Source: Methanobacteriota archaeon
GTDB taxonomy: Archaea; Hydrothermarchaeota; Hydrothermarchaeia; Hydrothermarchaeales; JAADFM01
Length of the DNA stretch: 9,730 bases
NCBI GenBank assembly: GCA_013152845.1
Contig: JAADFM010000004.1
Location: forward strand, 1 to 9,730
Direction: 5' to 3'
The position numbers and the translations under genes were made by a program. The notes below the pieces were generated by a model. That model searched no databases. It was not told the DNA's origin and saw only the letters and a list, made by a program, of their open reading frames with translations. Below are positions 1-9,480 of this stretch, in pieces; within the stretch, counting starts at the first letter, position 1; every line of letters begins with the position of its first letter.

Positions 1-326
1 TGCGCCTCAAGGACAAGCGCATAAGGAGGCTGCCCCTGCCCGAAGAGGCCCGGGAGGTGGAGGCCATGGAGGCCAGGGCAAGCCCCGAGCACGCCATGGA
101 CAGGAAGGGGTATTTCAAGATTTATGTTGCTGACAGGATATACTGCGTCCATTACAGGAAGGGCCGTCCCGGACACCTTGTCACCGGTACCGATGCCAAG
201 GCCATCTGCGATACCCTATTCGAGCTCGGCCTACTGGGCGACTACAGTCATGCCCTCTACATGGGCAGGGAGCTCCAGAAGGCCGAATGGGCCCTGAAAA
301 ACGGGACGAGTTATATACAGGAATGA
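1..326 (+). CDS. C-terminal part of a DUF4346-domain protein (dihydropteroate synthase-related or MtrA-like), truncated by window edge
   Basis: The reading frame is open from base 3 to the TGA at 324-326, so the gene starts before the window. The GTG at 57 is probably internal. The visible ~107 residues start with a basic linker (RLKDKRIRRLP). A compact domain follows: GYFKIYVADRIYCVHYRKG, then a segment with TGTDAKAI, then HALYMGRELQKAEWALKNG and a final SYIQE. From memory this pattern (GYFKI..., G.DAK.I, HA.Y.GREL.KAE.ALK, Y.Q[DE] end) matches DUF4346. That domain closes archaeal dihydropteroate synthase-related proteins of the MJ0107 type and some MtrA-like proteins. The linker favours the former, but the upstream domain is outside the window. 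Either parent would fit a neighbourhood of H4MPT-linked genes. It converges with the next gene, with six bases between stop codons. A profile search of the full gene would settle the parent family. Confidence 0.6.
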   Translation, partial: RLKDKRIRRLPLPEEAREVEAMEARASPEHAMDRKGYFKIYVADRIYCVHYRKGRPGHLVTGTDAKAICDTLFELGLLGDYSHALYMGRELQKAEWALKNGTSYIQE

Positions 327-332
327 GGGGGT

Positions 333-782
333 TCAGTATACGCCGTGGTCGAACCTGGGCGGGACGAGATACTCCCACTCCTCGCCCTTGCTGTATTTTT
401 CAGCGATTTCAAGGGCCTTGACGGCATACTCAAAGGCGTACGGAATCCCCTTCCCCTCAGGGACGAAACCGGCAGCGATGACCCCGATGGTCACGGCCTC
501 GAATATCTCCTCGGTGGTGGCCCCATCTTTGAGGGCGGGGATCACATGGATGAGGCAGCGGGGCGACATGACCGCAACACCGATGGCGGTGAAGATGAGC
601 TCCTTCTGTTTCTTGGAGAGAGCCCCGTCCTTCCACAGGCTGTTGTAAAAGTCCGCAAAGGTCTTGCCGGCTTCCGGGTTCACGGTATTGATTACCTTGA
701 ACATCCTGGGGGTAAAGCCCATCAGGTCTTCCATATACTTGTTTGCTTCTTCTGCTGTCATATTACTGGCATCATCTGCCAA
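333..782 (-). CDS. Carboxymuconolactone decarboxylase / AhpD-fold family protein
   Basis: The protein is about 149 residues from the preferred TTG at 782. The frame can extend to a GTG at 836 (167 residues) or start at an ATG at 761. TTG is preferred because AAGGAGGTG sits six bases before it, and the 18 upstream codons are AT-rich and unlike the body of the gene. The core matches the CMD/AhpD helical fold: GFTPRMFKVINTVNPEAG, a helix with FADFYNSLW, LSKKQKELIFTAIGVAV, then RCLIHVIPALKDGATTEEI and an EAV.IGVIAAG helix. AhpD-like members carry CxxC before the HxxxAL segment. Here the only nearby cysteine lies three residues before the histidine and the pair is absent, so AhpD-type disulfide chemistry is unlikely. 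No transmembrane segment or signal peptide is seen. It is transcribed alone, divergently from the UroD-CobW pair. The substrate is unknown. The family call is firm and the function is open. Confidence 0.8.
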   Translation of the reverse strand: MADDASNMTAEEANKYMEDLMGFTPRMFKVINTVNPEAGKTFADFYNSLWKDGALSKKQKELIFTAIGVAVMSPRCLIHVIPALKDGATTEEIFEAVTIGVIAAGFVPEGKGIPYAFEYAVKALEIAEKYSKGEEWEYLVPPRFDHGVY

Positions 783-788
783 ATCTCG

Positions 789-797
789 CACCTCCTT
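789..797 (-). promoter_or_regulatory. Strong Shine-Dalgarno site that decides a TTG start
   Basis: On the minus strand AAGGAGGTG is followed by six bases and then TTG at 782-780. This is the only good ribosome site near the three candidate starts (GTG 836, TTG 782, ATG 761). It therefore selects TTG and implies a leader of about 60 bases from the TATA box upstream. Confidence 0.6.
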
Positions 798-863
798 TTT
801 CTTCAAAAATCTGTCTAATAGACCCACTGGATCCACCGAACCTTACATTATTACTGTCTTTCA

Positions 864-934: not shown

Positions 935-1960
935 ATGAAACCTAAGGAAATCGTGCTGGAGGCCTTCCGGCTGGGGGAGCCCGAGAGGGTTCCGGTGGCC
1001 CTCTTCGGGGGAGGGGCGTGGACCATCTTCAATTCCGGGAACACCTTCCTGACCATGGCCGAGAGTGCCGGGAAGATGGCGAACATCATAATCGAGACCA
1101 GCGCCAAGCTGAGAAGCGACATAGTCTACTGCGGCTCTGGCTACAACAATTTCCATGCAGCGGCCCTGGGGGGAGAGATGAAGTTCAGGGAGGTGGGCCC
1201 CCCTGACCTGGAAGCGCCCCTCATCAACGAGGAAAGCGACCTGGACAGACTGAACGCCGAGGACCTGCGGGACGACAAGATCCTCCGGACCATCTGGGAA
1301 GCTACCAGGATGGTGGTAGACGCAATCGGTGATGATTACCTTGTCACCGCCACCTGCTGGGGTCCATTTACCCTGGGCGCCCAGCTGCGGGGTGTGGAGG
1401 CTCTCATGAGGGATATCTTCAAGAACCCCGAGTTCGCCAAGGCCGTGGTGAAGTTCGCAGCCGAACTCAACCTCGAGTTCTACCGGCCCCTCATCGAGGA
1501 GGGCCTGATAGAGATAGTGAGCATCGCCGACCCCACGGCCTCCGGGGACCTGATATCCAAGAAGCATTTCGAGGAGTTTGCCCTGCCGGACCTCCGCAGG
1601 GTCAACCGGGAGTTCAGGAAGGAGGGCGTCGGCAGCCTGGTCCACATCTGCGGGGATACCACCGACAAGCTGGATGCCATCGCCGAGTGCGAGGCCTCCT
1701 GTATCAGCCTGGACTACAAGGTGGCCCTGGGGACCGCCAAAGAGGTCTTCGGAGGCAGGATGTGTGTGGCCGGCAACGTGGACCCCGTGGGGACCATGAG
1801 CGAGGGCAACCCCGAGAAGACCAGGGCAGCGTCTGTGGAGTGCATGGACAAGGCCGCCGGGGGCGGCGGGTTCGTGCTGATGCCGGGCTGCGACATACCG
1901 CCTTCGGTCCCCCTGGAGAACATCCAGGCCTTTGTCCAGGCAGCCCACGATTATAAATGA
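935..1960 (+). CDS. UroD-family Zn-dependent corrinoid methyltransferase (MtaA/MtbA/CmuA-like), copy 1
   Basis: The 341 residues form one full-length UroD-fold (TIM barrel) protein, typical for the family. It begins MKPKEIVLEAFRLGEPERVPVALFG, the usual opening. Zn-ligand motifs of methyltransferase members are present: HIC (His237, Cys239) and MPGCDIPP (Cys319), the H-x-C-x(n)-C set that activates a thiol or other methyl acceptor or donor. TCWGPFTLGAQL (140-151) and AGNVDP (279-284) match the methyltransferase branch rather than haem-biosynthetic uroporphyrinogen decarboxylase. Family members move methyl groups between a corrinoid protein and coenzyme M, or take them from methylated substrates. 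No corrinoid gene is adjacent on this strand, so it may share the one encoded at 7759-8445. The ATG at 935 fits the TATA spacing. Its stop overlaps the CobW start (ATGA). The family is certain; substrate and direction of transfer are not. Confidence 0.85.
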   Translation: MKPKEIVLEAFRLGEPERVPVALFGGGAWTIFNSGNTFLTMAESAGKMANIIIETSAKLRSDIVYCGSGYNNFHAAALGGEMKFREVGPPDLEAPLINEESDLDRLNAEDLRDDKILRTIWEATRMVVDAIGDDYLVTATCWGPFTLGAQLRGVEALMRDIFKNPEFAKAVVKFAAELNLEFYRPLIEEGLIEIVSIADPTASGDLISKKHFEEFALPDLRRVNREFRKEGVGSLVHICGDTTDKLDAIAECEASCISLDYKVALGTAKEVFGGRMCVAGNVDPVGTMSEGNPEKTRAASVECMDKAAGGGGFVLMPGCDIPPSVPLENIQAFVQAAHDYK

Positions 1961-2847
1961 GGGTCAAGCTCGTCTGCGGTTTCCTGGGCTCGGGCAAGAC
2001 CACCCTGCTCAGGCACATCCTGGAGGACGGGGGGGAAGATTCTACCGCGGTCCTCATCAATGAGGCAGGGGATGTGGCCATCGACGGGGCGGTCCTTTCA
2101 AGGCGGGGGGGTCTGAAGATTGTGGAACTTCCCAGCGGCTGCCTCTGCTGTGTCCTGCGGGCAGACCTGGTCTCCACCGTCCGGGAGATATACGAGGAGT
2201 TCCGCCCGGCCAGGCTCCTCATCGAACCCTCGGGCATAGCATCGCCGTCCAACATCCTGGAGGCCCTGGAGACCCCGGACCTGCAGGAAGTCGTGGAGGT
2301 GGAGGCCGTGGTGGGCATCATCGATGCCACCAGTTTCCTGGACTTCTATGACTCCGGGGAGATGGGCGGGTTCTTCCTGGACCAGGTGAGAAACTCCGAC
2401 GTCCTCTTCGTGAACAAAGTGGACCTGGTCCCCGCTGAGACGGTGGAGAGGATCGAAGACATCCTCGGGGAGCTCAACGAAACGGCCGTGGTCTTCCGGA
2501 CGTTCTACTGCAGGGCACCGGTGCCGGAGGGCAGGCGCTCCCGGGAGACGGTCTCCTTCGGGTCCCATATGCACCTGGATACCCTGTCTCTCAAGGTGGA
2601 GGGCAGCTTCGACAGGGACGGCCTCCGGGGGGTCCTGTCCGGCCTGGCCTCAGGGGAATACGGCAGGGTCCTCAGGGCCAAGGGCATATTCTGCACCCCC
2701 GTGGGCCGGGTGGGGTTCAACTATGCCGGCGGCCCCTTGGAATTCGAGGGACTGGAGGGCGGCAGCGGCTCCAGGTTCGTGGCCCTGGGCAGGGATTTGA
2801 ACAGGGAGCTCCTCATGGAGCGGCTCCTATCCGCCAGGCTTGACTGA
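1957..2847 (+). CDS. CobW/COG0523-family GTPase, putative metal chaperone
   Basis: The 296-residue G3E-family GTPase shows Walker A GFLGSGKT (8-15), the metal-binding CxCC motif GCLCC (61-65), LIEPSG (88-93) and the guanine-specificity motif NKVD (153-156). A shorter CobW-type C-terminal domain follows (from about 195, SHMHLDTLSLKVEG). There is no His-rich tail such as many zinc chaperones carry. The family couples GTP hydrolysis to delivery of Zn, Co or other metals to target proteins. The start ATG overlaps the stop of the upstream UroD gene (ATGA) and has no Shine-Dalgarno site, so translation is probably coupled. The most economical reading is that it loads zinc into the UroD enzyme or cobalt into the corrinoid pathway; this is inference. 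It ends four bases from the convergent Fe-S gene. Confidence 0.87.
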   Translation: MRVKLVCGFLGSGKTTLLRHILEDGGEDSTAVLINEAGDVAIDGAVLSRRGGLKIVELPSGCLCCVLRADLVSTVREIYEEFRPARLLIEPSGIASPSNILEALETPDLQEVVEVEAVVGIIDATSFLDFYDSGEMGGFFLDQVRNSDVLFVNKVDLVPAETVERIEDILGELNETAVVFRTFYCRAPVPEGRRSRETVSFGSHMHLDTLSLKVEGSFDRDGLRGVLSGLASGEYGRVLRAKGIFCTPVGRVGFNYAGGPLEFEGLEGGSGSRFVALGRDLNRELLMERLLSARLD

Positions 2848-2851
2848 GGCC

Positions 2852-4054
2852 TCACAGCTGGGCGGCGGCGAACTCCAGGATGTCCATGACCTTGAGTTTC
2901 GGCCGGTATATCCCCTCGCTGACGGTCATCTTGAACCGCTCGTAGACCGCCGGGCAGGCCGTCAGCAGCACCTCTGCCCCGGTCTCCTCGGCCTCTTTGA
3001 GCACCGGCACCGACATATCGTGGGAGAGCTCCAGGTTGGTCCTCCTGAGGCCGCCCCCTGCCCCCGGGCACAGGGAGAGTTTCCGGTTGTGTTCCATCTC
3101 CACCAGCTCCACCCCCGGGATGCTCCTTATGATCTCCCTGGGCTCCCGGGTCAGCTCCTCTCCGTCCCCCCAGCCCCTGGAGAGGTAGCAGGGGTCGTGG
3201 TAGGTGACCCTGGCTTCGAAGGGTTTTGTGAAGGCGAGCCTCCCCTCCCTGACCGCATCGGAGAGTACCTCCAGGAGGTGCACGACCTGGAATGGTACAT
3301 CCACCACCTCGGGCCAGCCCCGCCGCATGACCGCCAGGCAGCAGGGGCAGTAGGGCGCCACCTTCTTGACCCCCTTGGCTTTTAGCCCCTCCACGTTCTT
3401 CTCCACCTCGCCCCGGAAGACCCTCCCCCGTTCTCCCAGGACATAGGGCGGGAAACCGCAGCACCACTCCTCCTCCAGGAGGGTATAGGGGATGCCGGAT
3501 GCCTCCAGGAGCCTCACCGCCCCCAGGGGCATCTCCTTGGCCTTGTAGGCCAGTTCGCAGCCCACGAAGAAGGCCAGTTCCGCCTCCTCGGCTATCTCGA
3601 GACCCTCGGGTATCCAGCGGTTCCGCTCTTCCATGGGCAGGTCGAAAGGGTTGTGGACCTCCTCCAGGATATCCCGGGCGGCGTCGATTTTCTCCTGGGG
3701 TCCATACCCCTGGCGGCGCATGATGGCCCGCACGTCCACCCAGAGTTCCTGGCAGTGAATCCCCACCGGGCAGACCGCACCGCACCTGCCGCAGGTGGTG
3801 CACTCGTAGAGCTCCTGGGCGAACTTCTCGAGTTTCTCCTCATCCACTCTGGGCCCGAAGAGCCTTGCCCTCAGGCCGTGGGCGTCCTGGACCATCTCCC
3901 TGTACTTCCGGAGCTTTTCCATGGGCGTGTTGCCCTGGTCCTCCCTTGCCGTCACCACCGGGCACCACTGGACGCAGTTGCCGCACCTGGTGCAGGCGTC
4001 CAGTTCCACCAGTTCCCGTTTGCTCAGGCCGGAAAGGAGGTCAATCTTCTTCAT
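2852..4054 (-). CDS. HdrD/DsrK/GlpC-like Fe-S oxidoreductase with two [4Fe-4S] motifs and two CCG domains, the second degenerate
   Basis: This 400-residue protein is the last gene of the operon. Two ferredoxin-type motifs, CTRCGNCVQWCP (21-32) and CTTCGRCGAVCP (85-96), should bind [4Fe-4S] clusters. The first CCG domain is complete: Cys166, then CC at 198-199, then CPCC at 236-239. Its spacing is C-x31-CC-x36-CxxC, the known consensus for noncubane [4Fe-4S] clusters of heterodisulfide reductase. The second domain keeps the spacing (Cys289, x39, 329-330, x36, 367-370) but reads CP instead of CC and CPAV instead of CxxC, so two ligands are missing. Relatives pass electrons between a membrane cytochrome and a disulfide, thiol or other acceptor in the cytoplasm. 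The gene overlaps the upstream membrane gene by 14 bases. GGAGG lies eight bases before its ATG. The pair resembles HdrDE or DsrMK. Its substrate is unknown, and true CoM-S-S-CoB reductase is uncertain given the lost ligands. Confidence 0.85.
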   Translation of the reverse strand: MKKIDLLSGLSKRELVELDACTRCGNCVQWCPVVTAREDQGNTPMEKLRKYREMVQDAHGLRARLFGPRVDEEKLEKFAQELYECTTCGRCGAVCPVGIHCQELWVDVRAIMRRQGYGPQEKIDAARDILEEVHNPFDLPMEERNRWIPEGLEIAEEAELAFFVGCELAYKAKEMPLGAVRLLEASGIPYTLLEEEWCCGFPPYVLGERGRVFRGEVEKNVEGLKAKGVKKVAPYCPCCLAVMRRGWPEVVDVPFQVVHLLEVLSDAVREGRLAFTKPFEARVTYHDPCYLSRGWGDGEELTREPREIIRSIPGVELVEMEHNRKLSLCPGAGGGLRRTNLELSHDMSVPVLKEAEETGAEVLLTACPAVYERFKMTVSEGIYRPKLKVMDILEFAAAQL

Positions 4055-4835
4055 ATCCGGGTCCTCCGTATCGGGTGGCCGAAAGGGCGGTGGTTATCGG
4101 GGAGGCACAGAGGTGGAACAGGTTGGAGAAGGGCAGGTAGGTGATGAGGACCATGGTCAGCACCAGGTGGGATGCCATGACCGCCCGGCCCGTCCCATCC
4201 GGCATCCCCTCCATCAGGTAGCCGAAGGCCGAGCCCACCGGGGCCACCTCCCAGGATGAACCCAGCTCCCCCCAGGCCGCCATCCTGTTGCCCTCGGCCG
4301 CAAAACCCGATATAACGATGAGGAGCAGTAGCAGGAGGACCGCCAGGTCATCCCTGCCGCTGGCGGCCCTCTCCCCTGCCGGGATGGTCCTCCTCAAGAG
4401 CCGGTAGACCAGGGTTACCAGGAGGAGGGCGCCCAGGAGGTCGAAGAGCAGGGAGTAGTAGGGGAAGGCGTCCCCGGTCACGGTCAGCAGCTTAAGGCCG
4501 AAGACGTAATCCACGGTGACGACGACAGTGGCCACGGCGGTTATGATAACGCCCCACACCAGGGCCAGGAGGCTCCATGCCCTCACCCTGCTGATGGGGA
4601 ACATCCTCGCACCCAGGAGGCAGTCCCTGGAAAATGCCCGGCTCAGCCCGAAGGTTGCAATACCCAGGGTCCCCCGGCCTGCCAGGGCGTCCTCCTCGTC
4701 CCTGCCCCTTGCCCAGATGGAGATCCGAGCCAGAGCTCCGGCGAGGGAGACCCCGATGGAGGCCAGGAAGGCCAGGTAGAGAAGGTTCCTCACCCCAGGG
4801 GAGAACATGCCGAAGGCCAGCCCGAGGGGTTCCAT
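4041..4835 (-). CDS. NarI/HdrE/DsrM-like membrane subunit (atypical b-type cytochrome)
   Basis: The 264 residues contain about five hydrophobic helices (near 17-40, 88-113, 127-147, 163-181 and 220-240), the NarI-type layout. The segment FSRDCLLGARMFPISRVRAW before helix 2 and HLVLTMVLITYLPFSNLFH in helix 5 resemble membrane domains that partner HdrD-like proteins. The protein has only two histidines, His223 and His241. Their 18-residue spacing equals that of the helix-5 haem ligands of NarI (187 and 205 in E. coli numbering, from memory). The partner histidines expected in helix 2 are absent. It may bind fewer haems, use other ligands, or act as a haem-poor quinone/methanophenazine-facing anchor. 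It follows the MtrH-like gene by 13 bases and overlaps the Fe-S gene by 14 bases, so the two products almost certainly form a complex. The exact electron carrier is unknown. Confidence 0.75.
   Translation of the reverse strand: MEPLGLAFGMFSPGVRNLLYLAFLASIGVSLAGALARISIWARGRDEEDALAGRGTLGIATFGLSRAFSRDCLLGARMFPISRVRAWSLLALVWGVIITAVATVVVTVDYVFGLKLLTVTGDAFPYYSLLFDLLGALLLVTLVYRLLRRTIPAGERAASGRDDLAVLLLLLLIVISGFAAEGNRMAAWGELGSSWEVAPVGSAFGYLMEGMPDGTGRAVMASHLVLTMVLITYLPFSNLFHLCASPITTALSATRYGGPGYEED
4063..4067 (-). promoter_or_regulatory. Shine-Dalgarno site for the HdrD-like gene, inside the membrane-protein gene
   Basis: GGAGG on the minus strand is eight bases before the ATG at 4054 and lies within the last codons of the upstream gene. 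It supports that start and coupled translation of the two redox subunits. Confidence 0.55.
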
Positions 4836-4848
4836 GGAGTTACCCTCT

Positions 4849-5802
4849 CTATCTGCCCGTGCCTTTCAGGGCGTCCACGAAGTCGGAATAGAGCTTGTTG
4901 AGGGGGTGCCCCGGTTCCTCAGGGAGGTATCCTGTCTCGTCGTAGACGAAGGTGGAAAGCATGGACTCTGCTGTGGCCATGGCAGGGAATATCCAGGGTG
5001 CGCTTTCGATGGGCCCGTACATGAGGAAGTCGTTCCAGAAGACGGCCCCGATTGCGTGGGCCGCCGCATCCAGGCCCGCAAAGCCCAGCTTGCCCCACAT
5101 GCCCTCCTGGACCTTCTTCACCATGTCGGTGCCGTTGGAGGGGGCACATCCCACCGGTATCCCCAGGATTTCCTTGACCTTCCGGCTCCCTATGAGGGAG
5201 AAGGGTGTTGAGGGGATGCTCATGACAGAGGTGTCGGCGACCACGTTCTCGAATCCCGCCTCCACTGCCCAGGGCAGGAGCTTCTCCTGGATGAGGGATA
5301 TCCTGCCGTCCGGGGTGGGGTCTTCCTGGTTGAAGGCCACCAAGAGGGCGTTCTTGAGGCCGATCTCCTTGAGGGCGGCCACCTCACCCTCGGGGTCGGT
5401 GCTCCAGGGGGCGATGCTGTTGTAGAGGTGCCTGTCCTGGAGGCCCATCTCGGCCACATACCTGGCCGCACCCAGTTTGGGCTCAACGGTCCAGATATCG
5501 GTGGAGAAGGGCATGTCGGTTACATCGGTCACAAAGTCGATGTAGCCCCTGATCTCCTCGGCAGAGTTGGCCACCAAATCCAGCATGCCCGGCATCCCAG
5601 TCTGGTCTGATAGGACCTCCTGTCTGTTGATGAGCTCTTCGGCCCGCTTCTTGTCAAATCGGCCTTCCCTCCGGCTCTCCAGGATCTTGTGGCCGTTGTA
5701 GAACATGGTGCCGATGAGGACCGTGGGGTTCTCCCCTGGCTGGCCTCCGAAGGTCACTCCCCCTATATCGAATTTCTTCTGCTCCTTTTCAAATCTGAAC
5801 AT
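4849..5802 (-). CDS. mtrH: MtrH-family methyl-H4MPT:corrinoid methyltransferase
   Basis: The 317 residues match MtrH closely in length and pattern: GGVTFGGQPGENPTVLIGT, then MFYNGHKI (33-40), FDKKRAEELINRQEVLSDQTG, DLVANSAEEIRGYIDFV, LYNSI (126-130), ALKEIGLKNALLVAFN, GRISLIQEKLLP, VVADTSV and VGCAPSN (217-223). MtrH is the peripheral subunit of the methanogen Mtr complex that exchanges methyl between H4MPT and a corrinoid. Stand-alone homologues act as methyltransferase II in methyl-uptake systems such as archaeal MtoA and bacterial relatives. No mtrA-G genes sit in this operon, so the stand-alone role is favoured: it would take the methyl from the corrinoid protein at 7759-8445 and make methyl-H4MPT (or a methyl-folate). 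It is soluble, with no membrane segment. The ATG follows the activator stop by six bases. Family call is strong; the symbol names the family, not proven membership of an Mtr complex. Confidence 0.88.
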   Translation of the reverse strand: MFRFEKEQKKFDIGGVTFGGQPGENPTVLIGTMFYNGHKILESRREGRFDKKRAEELINRQEVLSDQTGMPGMLDLVANSAEEIRGYIDFVTDVTDMPFSTDIWTVEPKLGAARYVAEMGLQDRHLYNSIAPWSTDPEGEVAALKEIGLKNALLVAFNQEDPTPDGRISLIQEKLLPWAVEAGFENVVADTSVMSIPSTPFSLIGSRKVKEILGIPVGCAPSNGTDMVKKVQEGMWGKLGFAGLDAAAHAIGAVFWNDFLMYGPIESAPWIFPAMATAESMLSTFVYDETGYLPEEPGHPLNKLYSDFVDALKGTGR

Positions 5803-5808
5803 CTTACA

Positions 5809-7755
5809 TCACTCCGGTATCTTGTCGAGGATATCCTGGACATGGGGGAACTGGTCCTTCATGTGGGGGAAGTGCATGGCGTACATGAACTCGGTCTGGA
5901 ACTCGGGGTCCACGGTGAGCTCGATGTACTTTATCTTCCTGGCGGTGACGTTGGCCTCCTCCCTCTTCTCGGTGTTGAGGAGGGCGATTCTGGCCCCGTC
6001 CCCGGCCGCGTTCCCGATGGCTCTGACCTTCTCCAGGTCGCAGTCAGGGAACATCCCTATCACCAGGCTGGCCTCCTTGTCGATGTAGCTGCCGAAGGCC
6101 CCTGCCAGGATGACGTGGTCCACCTCCTCCACACCATAGCGTTTCATGAGGATCTTGCACCCGGTGTAGAGGGCACCCTTGGCCAGCTGCATGGCCCGGA
6201 TATCCTTGAGGGTCACGGTGATGTCCCTTCCGATGGAGGTCTCGTTCTTCCAGGCCAGGACGAACTCCGGGGTCCCGTCTTCCCCCTTCCTGAGCCTGTC
6301 GGTGTCCAGTTCCATGTTGAAGGCACCGTTTTTCTTGATGATGCCTGCCTTGAACATCTCGGCCACGGCCTCGATGATGCCTGAGCCGCATATCCCCCTG
6401 GCATTCACCTCCTGGAGGTGGGTGTGCCAGTCGGTCTTGCCTATGACCTTGTACTTCACCTCCAGGGTCTTGGGGTCTATGCTGACCCGCTCGATGGCCC
6501 CGGGGGCAGCCCTCATGCCGTGTTTTATCTGGGCGCCCTCGAAGGCAGGCCCGGTGGCGCAGGAGGTGGAGAGGAGCCTGTCCTTGTTGCCCAGGACTAT
6601 CTCGCCGTTGGTCCCGATGTCGATGATGAGGTACACCTCATCCTTCTTCTCGGGTTCCACCGCCACCACGACACCCATGTTGTCGGCCCCCACGAAACCC
6701 GCCTCATTGGGCAGGACATGGACATATGCCCCGGGGGCCGCCTTCAGCCCCAGGTCCCTGGCCTTGACGTCAACTGACCGGTGCACCGCTGGCGGGAAGG
6801 GCGAGAGGCCCACGGCTTCTGGGTTGATGTTCAGGAAGATGTGGTGCATGCAGGTGTTGCCCACCACCACCATCTCCAGGATGTCCTCTGGGGTGATGCC
6901 GGCTTCCTCGGTCACGTTCCCGATGATTCGGTTCAGGCCGTCTATGATGGCGTCGTGCATCTTCTTGAGGCCCCCCTCCTGGGTCTGGGCATAGGTAATC
7001 CTGGCCATGACGTCCTCTCCGTAGGGCACCTGGGGGTTCATCATGGAGTCCACGGCAATGACCTTGCCGGTCTCCAGGTCCGTCAGATAGCCCACCACGG
7101 TGGTGGTTCCGATGTCAATGGCAAGGCCCACCCGCCTTTCATGGAACCCGGGCAGGGCCCTGATGATCTCCCTGCCCTGCCAGACCGAGACCGTGGCCTT
7201 CCAGTCTTCCTGCCTCAGGATGTCGGGGAGGCCCCTTAAGACCATGTAGTCCACCCCGAGCCCCTCCAGGTTGTGCTGTTCATTCAGCCCGGCAAGGAGG
7301 CGCTCCAGGTCGCCCTCGGGGTCGTCCAGGGTGGGTTTTGGCATCTCCACATAGTAATTCCTGATGGAGGGCACTATCTTGATGTCCAGGTCTGCGGCGG
7401 CCTTGCGGACTATCTGGCCCCCGCCCCGGGACTCCTCGGGCACGAAGACCAGGAGGTCCCCGTGGACCTCGGAGACACAGGCGAGCCGGTAGCCCTCCTC
7501 AATCTCCCCTTTCTTCAGGTGCTTCATCTCGTCCTCGGTTAGGGGGTTGAGGTGCTCCATGGAAGATTCAATGCCGTATTTCTCGAAGAATCCCTGGTGG
7601 ATCTGGACCTTGCACTTGCCGCAGGTCAGCTTGCCGCCGCAGATGGACTCGATGTCCACCCCCAGCTCCTGAGCGGCCTCCCTGAGGGTCTTGCCGTCCT
7701 GGATTTCACCCCTGCTCCCTGAAGGCTGGAAGATGACCCTGTGGGTCCCGGCCAT
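5809..7755 (-). CDS. RACo-type reductive activator of corrinoid proteins ([2Fe-2S] ferredoxin plus ASKHA ATPase)
   Basis: The 648 residues fit the RACo family (DUF4445, about 600-650). An N-terminal [2Fe-2S] domain has Cys39, Cys45, Cys48 and Cys93 (C-x5-C-x2-C-x44-C). A linker to about 205 leads to the actin-like ATPase: DIGTTT (214-219) and DIGTNGE (379-385) are phosphate motifs, and AGAFGSYIDKEAS near 570 is typical of the family. RACo uses ATP to reduce inactive Co(II) corrinoid to Co(I), restoring methyl-accepting activity after accidental oxidation. The design is the bacterial/Mto type with an N-terminal plant-type ferredoxin. It differs from methanogen RamA, which carries C-terminal [4Fe-4S] motifs. 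The gene starts three bases after the stop of the corrinoid-protein gene and precedes mtrH by six bases, so its client is clear from position. The ATG has AGGAGAGGT shortly upstream. Confidence 0.9.
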   Translation of the reverse strand: MAGTHRVIFQPSGSRGEIQDGKTLREAAQELGVDIESICGGKLTCGKCKVQIHQGFFEKYGIESSMEHLNPLTEDEMKHLKKGEIEEGYRLACVSEVHGDLLVFVPEESRGGGQIVRKAAADLDIKIVPSIRNYYVEMPKPTLDDPEGDLERLLAGLNEQHNLEGLGVDYMVLRGLPDILRQEDWKATVSVWQGREIIRALPGFHERRVGLAIDIGTTTVVGYLTDLETGKVIAVDSMMNPQVPYGEDVMARITYAQTQEGGLKKMHDAIIDGLNRIIGNVTEEAGITPEDILEMVVVGNTCMHHIFLNINPEAVGLSPFPPAVHRSVDVKARDLGLKAAPGAYVHVLPNEAGFVGADNMGVVVAVEPEKKDEVYLIIDIGTNGEIVLGNKDRLLSTSCATGPAFEGAQIKHGMRAAPGAIERVSIDPKTLEVKYKVIGKTDWHTHLQEVNARGICGSGIIEAVAEMFKAGIIKKNGAFNMELDTDRLRKGEDGTPEFVLAWKNETSIGRDITVTLKDIRAMQLAKGALYTGCKILMKRYGVEEVDHVILAGAFGSYIDKEASLVIGMFPDCDLEKVRAIGNAAGDGARIALLNTEKREEANVTARKIKYIELTVDPEFQTEFMYAMHFPHMKDQFPHVQDILDKIPE

Positions 7756-7758
7756 CTA

Positions 7759-8445
7759 TTATACCTCTCCTTTCTGCTTCATCTCCCTCAGGGCAGAGAC
7801 CATCCTGATGGCCTCGGTGAGGGCGTTGGAGGCGTCCTCGCCGTAGCCGTCGGCACCCCACTTGTCGGCGATGTCCTTGGAGACCGGCGCACCCCCGATG
7901 AGAATCTTGACATTGGGGTTTTTGGCCTTGATCTTTTCGATGACCTTCTTCATCCCCACCATGGTGGTGGTCATCATGGCAGAGAGGCAGACCAAGTCTG
8001 AATCGGTCTTCATCTGTTCCTCCACGAACCTGTCCAGGGGCACGTCCTTGCCCAGGTCGTGGACGGTGAAGCCCGCCACATCGAACATGAGCTTCACGAT
8101 GTTCTTGCCGATGTCGTGGACGTCCCCCTCCACGGTCCCGATGACCACCTCTCCCTTGACTTTCTGGTCCCTGTCCTTGGTCTTCACATGGGGTTTGAGG
8201 ATGTCCAGACCGGCATAGAGGGCATCGGCTGACATGAGCACTTCGGGCACGAAATACTCGCTCTTGGCAAAGAGGTCGCCCACCACCTCCATGCCTGCGG
8301 CGAGGCCGTCGAAGATGCCTTCGTTGGCATCGAAGCCTTCGTCGAGGTATTTCTGGGCAGTCTCCTTTACCAGATCCTCGTCATATTCGATGACCCCTTT
8401 TTTCAGGGTCTCGATGAGCTCCTTTTTCCTTCCATCGTCCGCCAT
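7759..8445 (-). CDS. MtbC/MtaC/MtvC-like corrinoid (methylcobamide) carrier protein
   Basis: The 228-residue protein has the two standard parts. An N-terminal helical cap domain (about 1-90) contains FDGLAAGMEVVGDLFAKSEYFVPEVLMSAD split over two helices. A B12-binding Rossmann domain (about 98-220) follows. The lower-axial-ligand motif DxHxxG is present as DVHDIG (108-113, His110), followed by CLSAMMTTTM (153-162) and GGAPVS (184-189), then GADGYGEDAS. It carries the methyl group on cobalt between the UroD enzyme and the MtrH-like enzyme. It lies 12 bases after the UroD gene, with AAGGAGG seven bases before its ATG, and is followed at once by its activator. Its stop is TAA followed directly by TAG. 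The likely partners are both UroD proteins of this window, as no second corrinoid gene is seen. Confidence 0.93.
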   Translation of the reverse strand: MADDGRKKELIETLKKGVIEYDEDLVKETAQKYLDEGFDANEGIFDGLAAGMEVVGDLFAKSEYFVPEVLMSADALYAGLDILKPHVKTKDRDQKVKGEVVIGTVEGDVHDIGKNIVKLMFDVAGFTVHDLGKDVPLDRFVEEQMKTDSDLVCLSAMMTTTMVGMKKVIEKIKAKNPNVKILIGGAPVSKDIADKWGADGYGEDASNALTEAIRMVSALREMKQKGEV

Positions 8446-8452
8446 TATCCGT

Positions 8453-8459
8453 CCTCCTT
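8453..8459 (-). promoter_or_regulatory. Shine-Dalgarno site for the corrinoid protein gene
   Basis: AAGGAGG on the minus strand overlaps the TAA of the upstream UroD gene and lies seven bases before the ATG at 8445. It is a clear internal ribosome site of the operon. The leading gene of the same operon lacks one. Confidence 0.65.
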
Positions 8460-9480
8460 ATGATGTGTTACCATACCTCTTAGTCGCCTCCACCAGGGCC
8501 TGCATGTTCTCGGCGGGCACGTCAGGCCAGATGTCGCAGCCCGGCATTACACCATCCACTCCCTTCTCGATGGCCGTCTTTACCGCGGCCTCCACATCTT
8601 CCTTTGTTCCCTGGACCAGGACGTTGTATGGGTCGATGTTGCCCAGGATTACCGCATCCTCCCCGAGCTTCTTCCTGGTCTCGGCCACATCGTTCTTCTG
8701 TTCCACCGCCAGGGCGTCGGCCCCGCATTCGGCCATGAGCTCCACGATGGGGTTGGTGTTGCCGCAGATGTGGAGAATCTTGGGGGAGTCGATCCTGGAG
8801 ATAGCCTCGGTCAGGGGCGGCTGGACCAGGGACTTGAACATCCTGGGACTTATGACGTCTGCCGGGGCACCCATCTCCCTGATGGTGATGTAGTCCGCCC
8901 CCGCATCTTTGAGGGCCTTGGCCACCCTGGCGATGACCTCGGCCAGGTCAGTCAGTATCCTGTTGATATCCTCGGGTCTCTTGAAGGATATCTTGAGGAG
9001 TTCGTTTAGGTCCATGATCTGGCCGGCCAGGGTGAAGGGGCCCAGGACGTAGGAACCGATGGCCACCTGGTCCCCCACGTCGTCCTTGAGGTGGCCTATG
9101 ACCTCCTGGAGCATGGGAATCCTGCCCCGTTTTTCCAGGTCTTCGGGGATCTCAATGTCCTCTCCTGCCTTGACCAGCTTGGTCTTGATGGTGGGATAGA
9201 GGATGTTGTCCTCTACGTGCTCGTAGTAGTTTATCTCTGAACCCAGGGCCTCGGCTTCGATGCAAAGATCGAAGGGGGCTACGGCACACTCGTATCCGAA
9301 GAGCTTGTAGGTGGAGGCTGCCAGGGTCGCCATGTCCCGGGCGTTACCATGGACCTCGGCGAACCGGATGTTGTGTTTCTTCATCCCCTCTACTGTGACA
9401 TTGCCCATGCCGCTGAAGCAGGGGACCCTGTCCACTTCCTCCCCTTTTAGGACCTCCATAACACGTTTTTTGGGTGTCAT
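8458..9480 (-). CDS. UroD-family Zn-dependent corrinoid methyltransferase (MtaA/MtbA/CmuA-like), copy 2
   Basis: This 340-residue full-length UroD-fold protein is the first gene of the long operon. It opens MTPKKRVMEVLKGEEVDRVPCFSG, as in MtaA/CmuA proteins. The zinc set is complete: HICG (His237, Cys239) and MPGCDIWP (Cys315). YVLGPFTLAGQI (144-155) and LGNIDP (279-284) match the methyltransferase branch. In methanogens such enzymes move methyl from a corrinoid to coenzyme M. In O-demethylase and halomethane systems they load the corrinoid. Here the MtrH-like enzyme already supplies the pterin-side step, so this protein is more likely the substrate-side methyltransferase I, but a coenzyme M role cannot be excluded. 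It is clearly diverged from the copy at 935-1960. The ATG at 9480 is about 26 bases from a TATA box, implying a leaderless message. Confidence 0.87.
   Translation of the reverse strand: MTPKKRVMEVLKGEEVDRVPCFSGMGNVTVEGMKKHNIRFAEVHGNARDMATLAASTYKLFGYECAVAPFDLCIEAEALGSEINYYEHVEDNILYPTIKTKLVKAGEDIEIPEDLEKRGRIPMLQEVIGHLKDDVGDQVAIGSYVLGPFTLAGQIMDLNELLKISFKRPEDINRILTDLAEVIARVAKALKDAGADYITIREMGAPADVISPRMFKSLVQPPLTEAISRIDSPKILHICGNTNPIVELMAECGADALAVEQKNDVAETRKKLGEDAVILGNIDPYNVLVQGTKEDVEAAVKTAIEKGVDGVMPGCDIWPDVPAENMQALVEATKRYGNTS

Follow-up and report, generated by a model that had tools for sequence, protein, structure and literature searches.

A recurring corrinoid methyl-transfer gene set with an HdrDE-like membrane pair in Hydrothermarchaeota and Nitrospirota, possibly serving a coenzyme M-type thiol

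Why would the genes of a corrinoid methyl-transfer system stand in one operon with a membrane redox pair? The question is raised by a contig of 9,730 bases (G000:C4) from a Hydrothermarchaeales archaeon, which was analysed over its entire length and is called the window here; the genome it belongs to (G000) comprises 1.17 Mb in 177 contigs and is 62.7% complete. Six open reading frames (ORFs) on the minus strand follow one another in the order MtaA1 (UroD family), CorP, RACo, MtrH-like, NarI-like and HdrD-like; 12, 3, 6 and 13 bases separate the first five, and the NarI-like and HdrD-like genes overlap by 14 bases. The initial annotation, made from the letters of this sequence, had described the same layout, and its families, order and spacing were all borne out. 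It could not, reading one sequence, reveal the connection with coenzyme M (CoM) described below. The link between methyl-transfer genes and redox pair is not unique to the window, and the view of the initial annotation that this link matters has held up, as the link recurs in the Pyrohabitans genus and in Nitrospirota. The explanation that we favour, tentatively and with somewhat less than even confidence, is a methyl-transfer module for a CoM-type thiol that operates independently of methyl-CoM reductase (MCR) and includes an HdrDE-like pair linked to menaquinone.

The connection with CoM comes from bacterial loci. We scanned named genomes with a RACo alignment and took as loci the best 80 of 136 confirmed stretches. 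Strong HdrD matches (more than 400 bits with a profile built for this analysis) were found at 11 of these 80 loci, namely two of the Pyrohabitans genus, seven of Nitrospirota, one of Thermoleophilia and one of Bacillota, with a weaker match in Geoglobus (L079). The Nitrospirota and Thermoleophilia clusters have the order MtaA2-CMD-MtrH-MtaA1-CorP-(Fe-S protein)-RACo-DUF6951-(FolD)-NarI-HdrD, where CMD is a carboxymuconolactone decarboxylase-type protein and the Fe-S protein was not detected in L059. Wherever the contig continues downstream of HdrD in these clusters, cysteate synthase and sulfopyruvate decarboxylase (ComDE) follow. In the Nitrospirota locus L046, cysteate synthase lies directly after NarI-HdrD (TIGR03844, 479 bits, cut-off 325); the alpha part of its sulfopyruvate decarboxylase scores 184 with TIGR03845 (cut-off 148) and the beta part 220.0 with TIGR03846, just under the cut-off of 221.5. 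According to the accessible passages of PMC12068725, cysteate synthase and ComDE, with an aminotransferase between them, lead to sulfoacetaldehyde, a CoM precursor.

To the extent that one phylum can be sampled by drawing evenly from it, the association is tight: among 395 Nitrospirota genomes, with MtrH counted at E <= 1e-40 and cysteate synthase over its cut-off, 59 carry cysteate synthase, 63 MtrH and 55 both (Fisher p = 1.6e-53). Four genomes have cysteate synthase only and eight MtrH only; G069 was counted among the latter because the Thermodesulfovibrio cysteate synthase beside the cluster is split over two frames (L066:8970-9821 and downstream). The two genes share a contig in 42 of the 55 genomes, in every case at a distance of 7.5-10.7 kb. 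The complete gene set is present in 18 of 20 regions sampled from the 59 cysteate synthase carriers, and 17 of the 18 have the same order. HdrD and NarI are swapped in L167, and a further NarI-HdrD stretch occurs in both L185 and L186; the incomplete regions are L174, cut by a contig end, and L175, with cysteate synthase and ComDE alone. CdhC is present in 51 of the 59 carriers (177 of 395 genomes overall) and dsrA in 55 (175 of 395 overall), so the carriers are mostly organisms with carbon monoxide dehydrogenase/acetyl-CoA synthase and dsr genes.

The methyltransferases of the window also point to thiols. MtaA1 passes the cut-offs of the methylcobalamin:CoM methyltransferase subfamily (NF004889, 284 bits, cut-off 244) and of the MtaA/CmuA family (TIGR01463, 265 bits, cut-off 235), and stays under that of the MtaA equivalog (NF040654, 283 against 400). 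Among solved structures it is closest to the methylcobalamin:CoM methyltransferase 4ay7 of the Protein Data Bank (PDB; E 9e-53), which MtaA2, a second UroD-family protein of the window, matches at E 1.9e-26. The zinc ligands of the HxC and PGC motifs are intact in both enzymes: H238, C240 and C316 of MtaA1 (numbered on the extracted open-frame segment, one above protein numbering) are kept in at least 97% of 35 rows, and H237, C239 and C319 of MtaA2 in at least 97% of 29 rows. As described in parts of PMC10418091, His-Cys-Cys is the zinc sphere of S- and Se-methyltransferases, and in O-methyltransferases one Cys or both have given way to other residues; the chloromethane enzyme CdmB showed no zinc, by the available text of PMC13222342. 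The intact motif in both UroD enzymes thus argues against an O-demethylase, away from methoxyarenes and towards thiols, and the O-demethylase (Mto) type of system named by the initial annotation is not favoured. The Pyrohabitans genus, G004 and Archaeoglobi-type loci have a third UroD paralogue, about 32-38% identical to MtaA1, that diverges from the operon on the opposite strand (L018:1862-2869, L030, L033, L068, L079, L091), and an Lrp/AsnC-type regulator adjoins it in L018.

The remaining methyl-transfer proteins are consistent with their families. CorP barely passes TIGR02370 (217.2, cut-off 215.3), is about 71-74% identical to the CorP of the Nitrospirota clusters and has the conserved GDVHDIG motif. 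C39, C45, C48 and C93 of RACo are invariant across the window and three Pyrohabitans-genus rows. The MtrH-like protein belongs to the broad family NF002142 (368 bits, cut-off 287), matches PDB entries 8z9u (E 8e-64) and 6sj8 (E 6e-56), and misses the mtrH equivalog TIGR01114 (221 against 271), on which ground we rejected it as a subunit of the Mtr complex. The operon contains no MtrA-G genes; the rest of the genome was not searched for them.

The initial annotation had also suggested looking for MCR in the host. MCR alpha was detected in none of 54 genomes from these groups, the window's own genome being 62.7% complete, while two control methanogens were positive; an origin of the operon from a methanogen was rejected on this result. 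In the accessible text of Carr et al. (PMC6775978), Hydrothermarchaeota carry dsrAB and genes for menaquinone but no mcr, and methyl-CoM may have an alternate fate.

The membrane subunit is the sole member of the operon not over its Pfam cut-off (PF02665, 19.8 bits against 22.9). Four relatives were scanned as well; the scores of three are above that cut-off (33.7, 28.0 and 25.1) and that of the fourth is below it (20.9). A profile built from 11 relatives (alignment A3) matches PDB entries for the gamma chain of respiratory nitrate reductase (NarI, 1y5i, E 5e-5), so that the protein, a weak match singly, is by sequence clearly matched as a family. A protein search with it returned itself and one relative of 47% identity, and its distribution was therefore taken from whole genomes. 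The HdrD-like protein has as its top NCBIfam profile TfrB, a subunit of the CoM/CoB-type fumarate reductase (174 bits, under the cut-off of 385). Its N-terminal CCG motif is complete in 11 of 11 rows of alignment A2. The C-terminal motif is complete in eight (six Nitrospirota/Thermoleophilia rows, G004b in L017 and G013 in L130) and degenerate in the window (CPG / CPAVY; domain at 2939-3208), G004a (L016) and G006.

How far does the arrangement extend among archaea? We compared the window's genome with 60 relatives (61 genomes in all), and read some families across 23 genomes of the class Hydrothermarchaea; by match, G004 corresponds to Ca. Hydrothermarchaeum profundi JdFR-18 and G013 to Ca. 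Pyrohabitans jungbluthii JdFR-16, both kin at the level of the order. NarI matches were found in 13 of 61 genomes at E <= 1e-3 and in 9 of 61 at E < 1e-15. The order RACo-MtrH-NarI is present in all five Pyrohabitans-genus (g12) genomes examined. In four of the five no HdrD stands behind NarI, and the contig of G016 stops there; HdrD lies about 11 kb from NarI in G013 and G014, on the other strand, beside CMD and MtaA2. G004 has two NarI-HdrD pairs, both away from MtrH. The first (L016:10333-13561) is followed by CMD, DsrE and a gene that is TusA-like by eye, which hints at sulfur trafficking; behind the second come two small ORFs and then cysteate synthase and ComDE, all on one strand. G006 and G007 each have the pair at a contig end, with an ORF of 107 amino acids (aa) between HdrD and NarI in G007. 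The initial annotation had proposed a search for conserved co-occurrence of the six families in this order: the families do recur together, but the exact six-gene order was found in no other archaeal genome examined. It had also held that adjacency of the pair in this genome only would speak against the idea. The pair occurs in other archaea and in Nitrospirota, so we rejected a purely local arrangement. The six-gene observation is confirmed, and given the RACo-MtrH-NarI and NarI-HdrD neighbourhoods elsewhere it is more than chance.

The families are shared across the class as well. Full-span MtaA1 orthologues of at least 60% identity are present in 8 of the 23 class genomes (G005, in addition, has a fragment), window-type NarI in 9 and both in 8 (p 1.8e-5). 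Cysteate synthase is over its cut-off in 8 of the 23, and 6 genomes have it in common with MtaA1 (p 0.006). In the class of Geoglobus L079 (59 genomes), MtaA1 of at least 50% identity was found in 10 (one partial), a cysteate-synthase-like match at E <= 1e-60 in 10 (3 over the cut-off), and the two together in 6 (p 0.0007).

To trace the association through RACo itself, each of 99 rows of a quick, midpoint-rooted RACo tree was labelled by whether NarI-HdrD is tied to RACo. The label requires 4 changes, against 27.8 in shuffles, a clustering that copies from nearest kin inflate. Three Pyrohabitans-genus rows were counted as linked (NarI is adjacent; HdrD lies at a distance of about 11 kb in G013 and G014 and was not read in G018), as were the contig-cut L036 and L043, and Geoglobus L079, with a weak NarI2/HdrD upstream, was counted as unlinked. 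Linked rows fall in three places: in Hydrothermarchaeota, mixed with unlinked kin; in a pure clade of 28 Nitrospirota/Thermoleophilia rows; and at one Bacillota locus nested in an unlinked clade. NarI and HdrD are fused in a single ORF of 689 aa in Bacillota (L071:14902-16971). The repeated association and this fusion point to function rather than accident. ORFs of 624-626 aa in G037 (L026) and G058 (L025) match both NarI and HdrD.

What might these genes do together? We propose that a methyl group is moved between a CoM-type thiol, presumably CoM or a close sulfonated thiol, and tetrahydromethanopterin (H4MPT) via the B12 protein CorP. MtaA1 and MtaA2 would act on methylated sulfur compounds or methyl-CoM, and CorP, together with RACo and MtrH, would pass the methyl group to H4MPT (tetrahydrofolate in bacteria), whereupon the Wood-Ljungdahl pathway would oxidise it in its methyl branch. 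The thiol set free would be oxidised by NarI-HdrD and its electrons delivered to menaquinone, with the complete N-terminal CCG site of HdrD as the presumed place of thiol/disulfide chemistry and the NarI-like subunit serving the quinone side. Menaquinone lies near -75 mV. For the CoM/CoB disulfide, a potential of -143 mV is given in the available part of PMC8630106. Electron transfer from a CoM-like thiol to menaquinone would hence be downhill if the thiol behaves alike, which favours thiol oxidation over disulfide reduction.

We favour this CoM-type module because NarI-HdrD stands with CoM-pathway genes in L046, in 18 of the 20 sampled regions and in G004; because cysteate synthase and MtrH co-occur across the 395 Nitrospirota genomes, the zinc motifs are of the S type and MtaA1 falls in the CoM-methyltransferase subfamily; and because TfrB is the top profile of HdrD, RACo is linked to the pair in three places of its tree, NarI and MtaA1 are shared by 8 of 23 genomes and the two subunits are fused in L071.

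Several results weigh against it. CoM synthesis is known to end with MMP16/ComF, and none of 17 genomes, 10 of them bacterial carriers of the cluster, has this enzyme over its cut-off, so that the end product may not be CoM but another sulfonated thiol, or the final step may be another one. Weak MMP16 matches occur in all 17, mostly in ferredoxin-like stretches; those in G071, G000 and G070 extend over the first 278-289 positions and are possible relatives of COG1900. Cysteate synthase over the cut-off is lacking in the window's own, incomplete genome (62.7%). Strong HdrD is missing from 69 of the 80 RACo loci, of which some are cut by contig ends and many are long. The window HdrD lacks two C-terminal CCG cysteines, so that a full pair of HdrB-type non-cubane clusters is not expected in it. 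Window-type NarI, a type also present in Nitrospirota L046, has just two invariant His (H223 and H241, 18 residues apart, in 11 rows), which makes heme binding uncertain; the other Nitrospirota type has four (24 rows), and four conserved His are also kept in NarI/HdrE. Finally, the best structural match of HdrD is EtfD, which is an electron wire and not a thiol enzyme, and in G013, G014 and G016 a FrhB-type (F420 family) protein heads the operon, which fits F420H2 as electron source.

The last two points lead to the chief rival, in which NarI-HdrD is an EtfD/FadF/DgcB-like wire that carries electrons from methyl oxidation, delivered by F420H2/FrhB, electron-transfer flavoprotein (ETF) or ferredoxin, to menaquinone with no thiol in the step. 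We consider it unlikely, though a serious contender. The HdrD model (AF2, mean pLDDT 85.9) matches Mycobacterium smegmatis EtfD first in Foldseek (E 1.8e-18, TMq 0.79), followed by LutA and HdrB, and the sequence profile agrees (EtfD, PDB 9ojn, E 4e-44; HdrB, 1.5e-12). The NarI model (AF2, pLDDT 74.4, mainly long helices) also has M. smegmatis EtfD as its best match, a weak one (E 1.5e-3). In addition to the FrhB-type protein of the three Pyrohabitans-genus genomes, FolD, which four of the 18 full Nitrospirota clusters and also L040, L046 and L066 contain, would suit such a wire, as would the menaquinone genes that Carr et al. report. However, the CCG completeness of the window HdrD is the opposite of that of EtfD, no ETF gene was found among the window proteins scanned, and a wire leaves cysteate synthase and ComDE behind HdrD unexplained. 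The initial annotation had offered two couplings for the pair, and the first, entry of methyl-oxidation electrons into it, is kept as a possibility by this rival.

A system like the type 1 mlp clusters, with UroD enzymes of Mlp2/Mlp3 type, is improbable. It would account for two His-Cys-Cys UroD enzymes with a corrinoid protein and RACo, as in the accessible text of PMC10418091, and the DsrE and by-eye TusA-like genes behind the NarI-HdrD pair and CMD of G004, as well as the excess of dsrA among Nitrospirota cysteate synthase carriers, are in keeping with it. Type 1 clusters, however, have no tetrahydrofolate methyltransferase as far as that text describes them, whereas MtrH is present in 18 of 18 full clusters here, and the available main text mentions neither Nitrospir-, MtrH, Hdr nor cysteate.

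More doubtful still is that the first four genes form a Mto-type O-demethylase for methoxylated aromatics, with the redox pair added downstream for electron disposal. The four component families are indeed those of MtoB, MtoC, MtoD and MtoA in the passages available from PMC8359953 and PMC8630106, but O-methyltransferases replace Cys of the motif that both UroD enzymes keep (PMC10418091, in part). The gene order is also different, a scan of the window's ten proteins, beyond which the contig does not extend, gave no major facilitator superfamily (MFS) transporter, and the linked bacterial genes belong to the CoM pathway; a standard Mto operon was rejected on zinc motif and gene order. The second coupling of the initial annotation, in which RACo would draw on the pair for the electrons that reactivate Co(II) to Co(I), is very improbable: the genes share an operon and the 2Fe-2S domain of RACo needs a donor, but, judged by redox potentials, the reducing power of quinol does not suffice for RACo, most RACo loci (some cut short) have no strong HdrD, and none of the analyses gave positive support.

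If the CoM-type module is real, it may be part of something wider, which we put forward with less assurance than the module itself: an Mcr-independent CoM respiration common to archaea and bacteria, in which methylated thiols would supply methyl groups, through a soluble replacement of Mtr (MtaA1, CorP, RACo and MtrH), to the methyl branch of the Wood-Ljungdahl pathway, and the CoM thiol would be oxidised by a dedicated HdrDE-like enzyme that uses menaquinone as acceptor. Methyl-CoM would gain the alternate fate suspected in the accessible text of Carr et al. (PMC6775978), a suggestion that this gene set makes testable in Hydrothermarchaeota, which have MtrH but no MCR, and CoM would have a catabolic role in Nitrospirota. 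Were CoM made and used there, dsr-bearing Nitrospirota would gain a predicted route for methylated sulfur compounds, with cysteate synthase as the marker of the genomes concerned. CoM would then no longer be tied to methane and alkane chemistry or to its role in propylene metabolism.

The window holds more of this gene set than the six genes of the initial annotation (Table 1): MtaA2, a CobW-type GTPase and CMD are members too, so that, the terminal fragment aside, both strands of the window carry genes of a single recurring set. MtaA2 overlaps CobW by 4 bases, this unit converges on HdrD, and CMD is divergent from MtaA2. CMD, whose conserved residues were read from 32 rows, shares 83% identity with the CMD that follows a NarI-HdrD pair in G004, and MtaA2 adjoins CMD in the Nitrospirota clusters. 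CobW is near several related clusters and is a possible zinc chaperone for MtaA2.

Table 1. Features of the window (coordinates of ORFs include stop codons)
Feature	Coordinates	Strand	Evidence
MtaA1, UroD-family corrinoid methyltransferase, first operon gene	8458..9480	-	PF01208 256 bits; His-Cys-Cys zinc motif
CorP, methyltransferase cognate corrinoid protein, DxHxxG cobalamin motif	7759..8445	-	B12-binding 97 bits; TIGR02370, PF02310, PF02607
RACo, ATP-dependent reductive activator of CorP (by family), N-terminal 2Fe-2S domain	5809..7755	-	PF14574 342 bits; PF17651, PF17650, PF00111
MtrH-like methyl-corrinoid:tetrahydropterin methyltransferase, not Mtr-complex MtrH	4849..5802	-	MtrH 231 bits; NF002142
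NarI/HdrE-like membrane cytochrome b subunit (predicted)	4041..4835	-	PF02665 19.8 bits, under cut-off
HdrD-like protein, 4Fe-4S motifs and two CCG domains	2852..4054	-	PF02754 88 bits, two stretches
MtaA2, second UroD-family methyltransferase, divergent unit	935..1960	+	PF01208 211 bits; His-Cys-Cys zinc motif
CobW/ZigA-type GTPase	1957..2847	+	PF02492 150 bits; NF038288 ZigA 114 bits, below cut-off 600
CMD, carboxymuconolactone decarboxylase/AhpD-fold protein	333..836	-	PF02627 41 bits; conserved S-x-R-C-x-x-H
Contig-edge fragment, dihydropteroate-synthase-like	3-326		DUF4346 (PterinBD) domain; weak MtrA match

Further small proteins accompany the related clusters. DUF6951 (about 104 aa; L046:11997-12308) is present in 18 of 18 full Nitrospirota clusters and stands beside CobW in G013 and G017; three Cys, one His and two Glu are kept in at least 97% of 30 rows, which suggests a metal or Fe-S protein not yet studied and makes it a candidate for a missing step. 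The 4Fe-4S protein between CorP and RACo (L039, L040, L046 and others; 18 of 18 full clusters) is weakly like QueG and reductive dehalogenases. Related UroD/CorP/RACo/MtrH loci of a proteobacterium (L037) and of Thermodesulfobacteriota (L042) encode several small proteins in which CGGM or CGGI occurs close to the N terminus. Near the cluster of L040, the protein of L040:1255-2163 has as its best NCBIfam profile an aliphatic sulfonate binding family, below cut-off, and by appearance alone its start is resembled by that of the ORF behind ComDE in L017 (L017:2316-3236).

How does the gene set compare with known systems? Among the matches listed from open-licence PMC literature, judged by titles, abstract openings and passages, there is no description of this combination. 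The type 1 mlp clusters of Kountz and Balskus (PMC10418091), which in the available text belong to anaerobes, mostly non-methanogens, likewise combine several His-Cys-Cys UroD enzymes with one corrinoid protein and a RACE/RACo activator; compared with that description, MtrH, NarI-HdrD, CMD, DUF6951 and, in Nitrospirota, cysteate synthase and ComDE are added here. MtoABCD of Methermicoccus and Archaeoglobus fulgidus shares a UroD protein, a corrinoid protein, a RACo-type activator and an MtrH-type MT2 protein with the window, which differs in its S-type zinc motif, its gene order, the lack of MFS transporters and the added membrane redox pair. The initial annotation was right that such a pair is not part of the Mto cluster: in the accessible part of PMC8359953, AF_0006-13 is listed as MtoABCD and MFS transporters.

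The membrane pair itself resembles two kinds of enzyme. With HdrDE and TfrAB it shares an HdrD-like CCG protein, a cytochrome b-like anchor and profile similarity to TfrB and HdrB; unlike HdrDE, it occurs where MCR was not found in 54 genomes, one CCG domain of the window HdrD is degenerate and the window-type anchor has two invariant His, against four in the other Nitrospirota type. With EtfD, FadF and DgcB it shares the fold and domain order of both subunits and the best PDB match. EtfD is, in the available passages of PMC13083937, a wire that links ETF to menaquinone by way of Fe-S clusters and a single heme b. NarI and HdrD, however, are separate genes in the window (fused in L071) and ETF genes are absent from it. 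In the passages seen of EtfD its C-terminal CCG domain is complete and the N-terminal one reduced, and the N-complete, C-degenerate variants of three archaeal genomes are the mirror image of this. Compared with the Mtr complex of methanogens, soluble UroD and MtaC-type proteins replace MtrA-G and the window MtrH is under the equivalog cut-off, yet MtrH, a corrinoid protein and a CoM-type methyltransferase could together perform the same net transfer.

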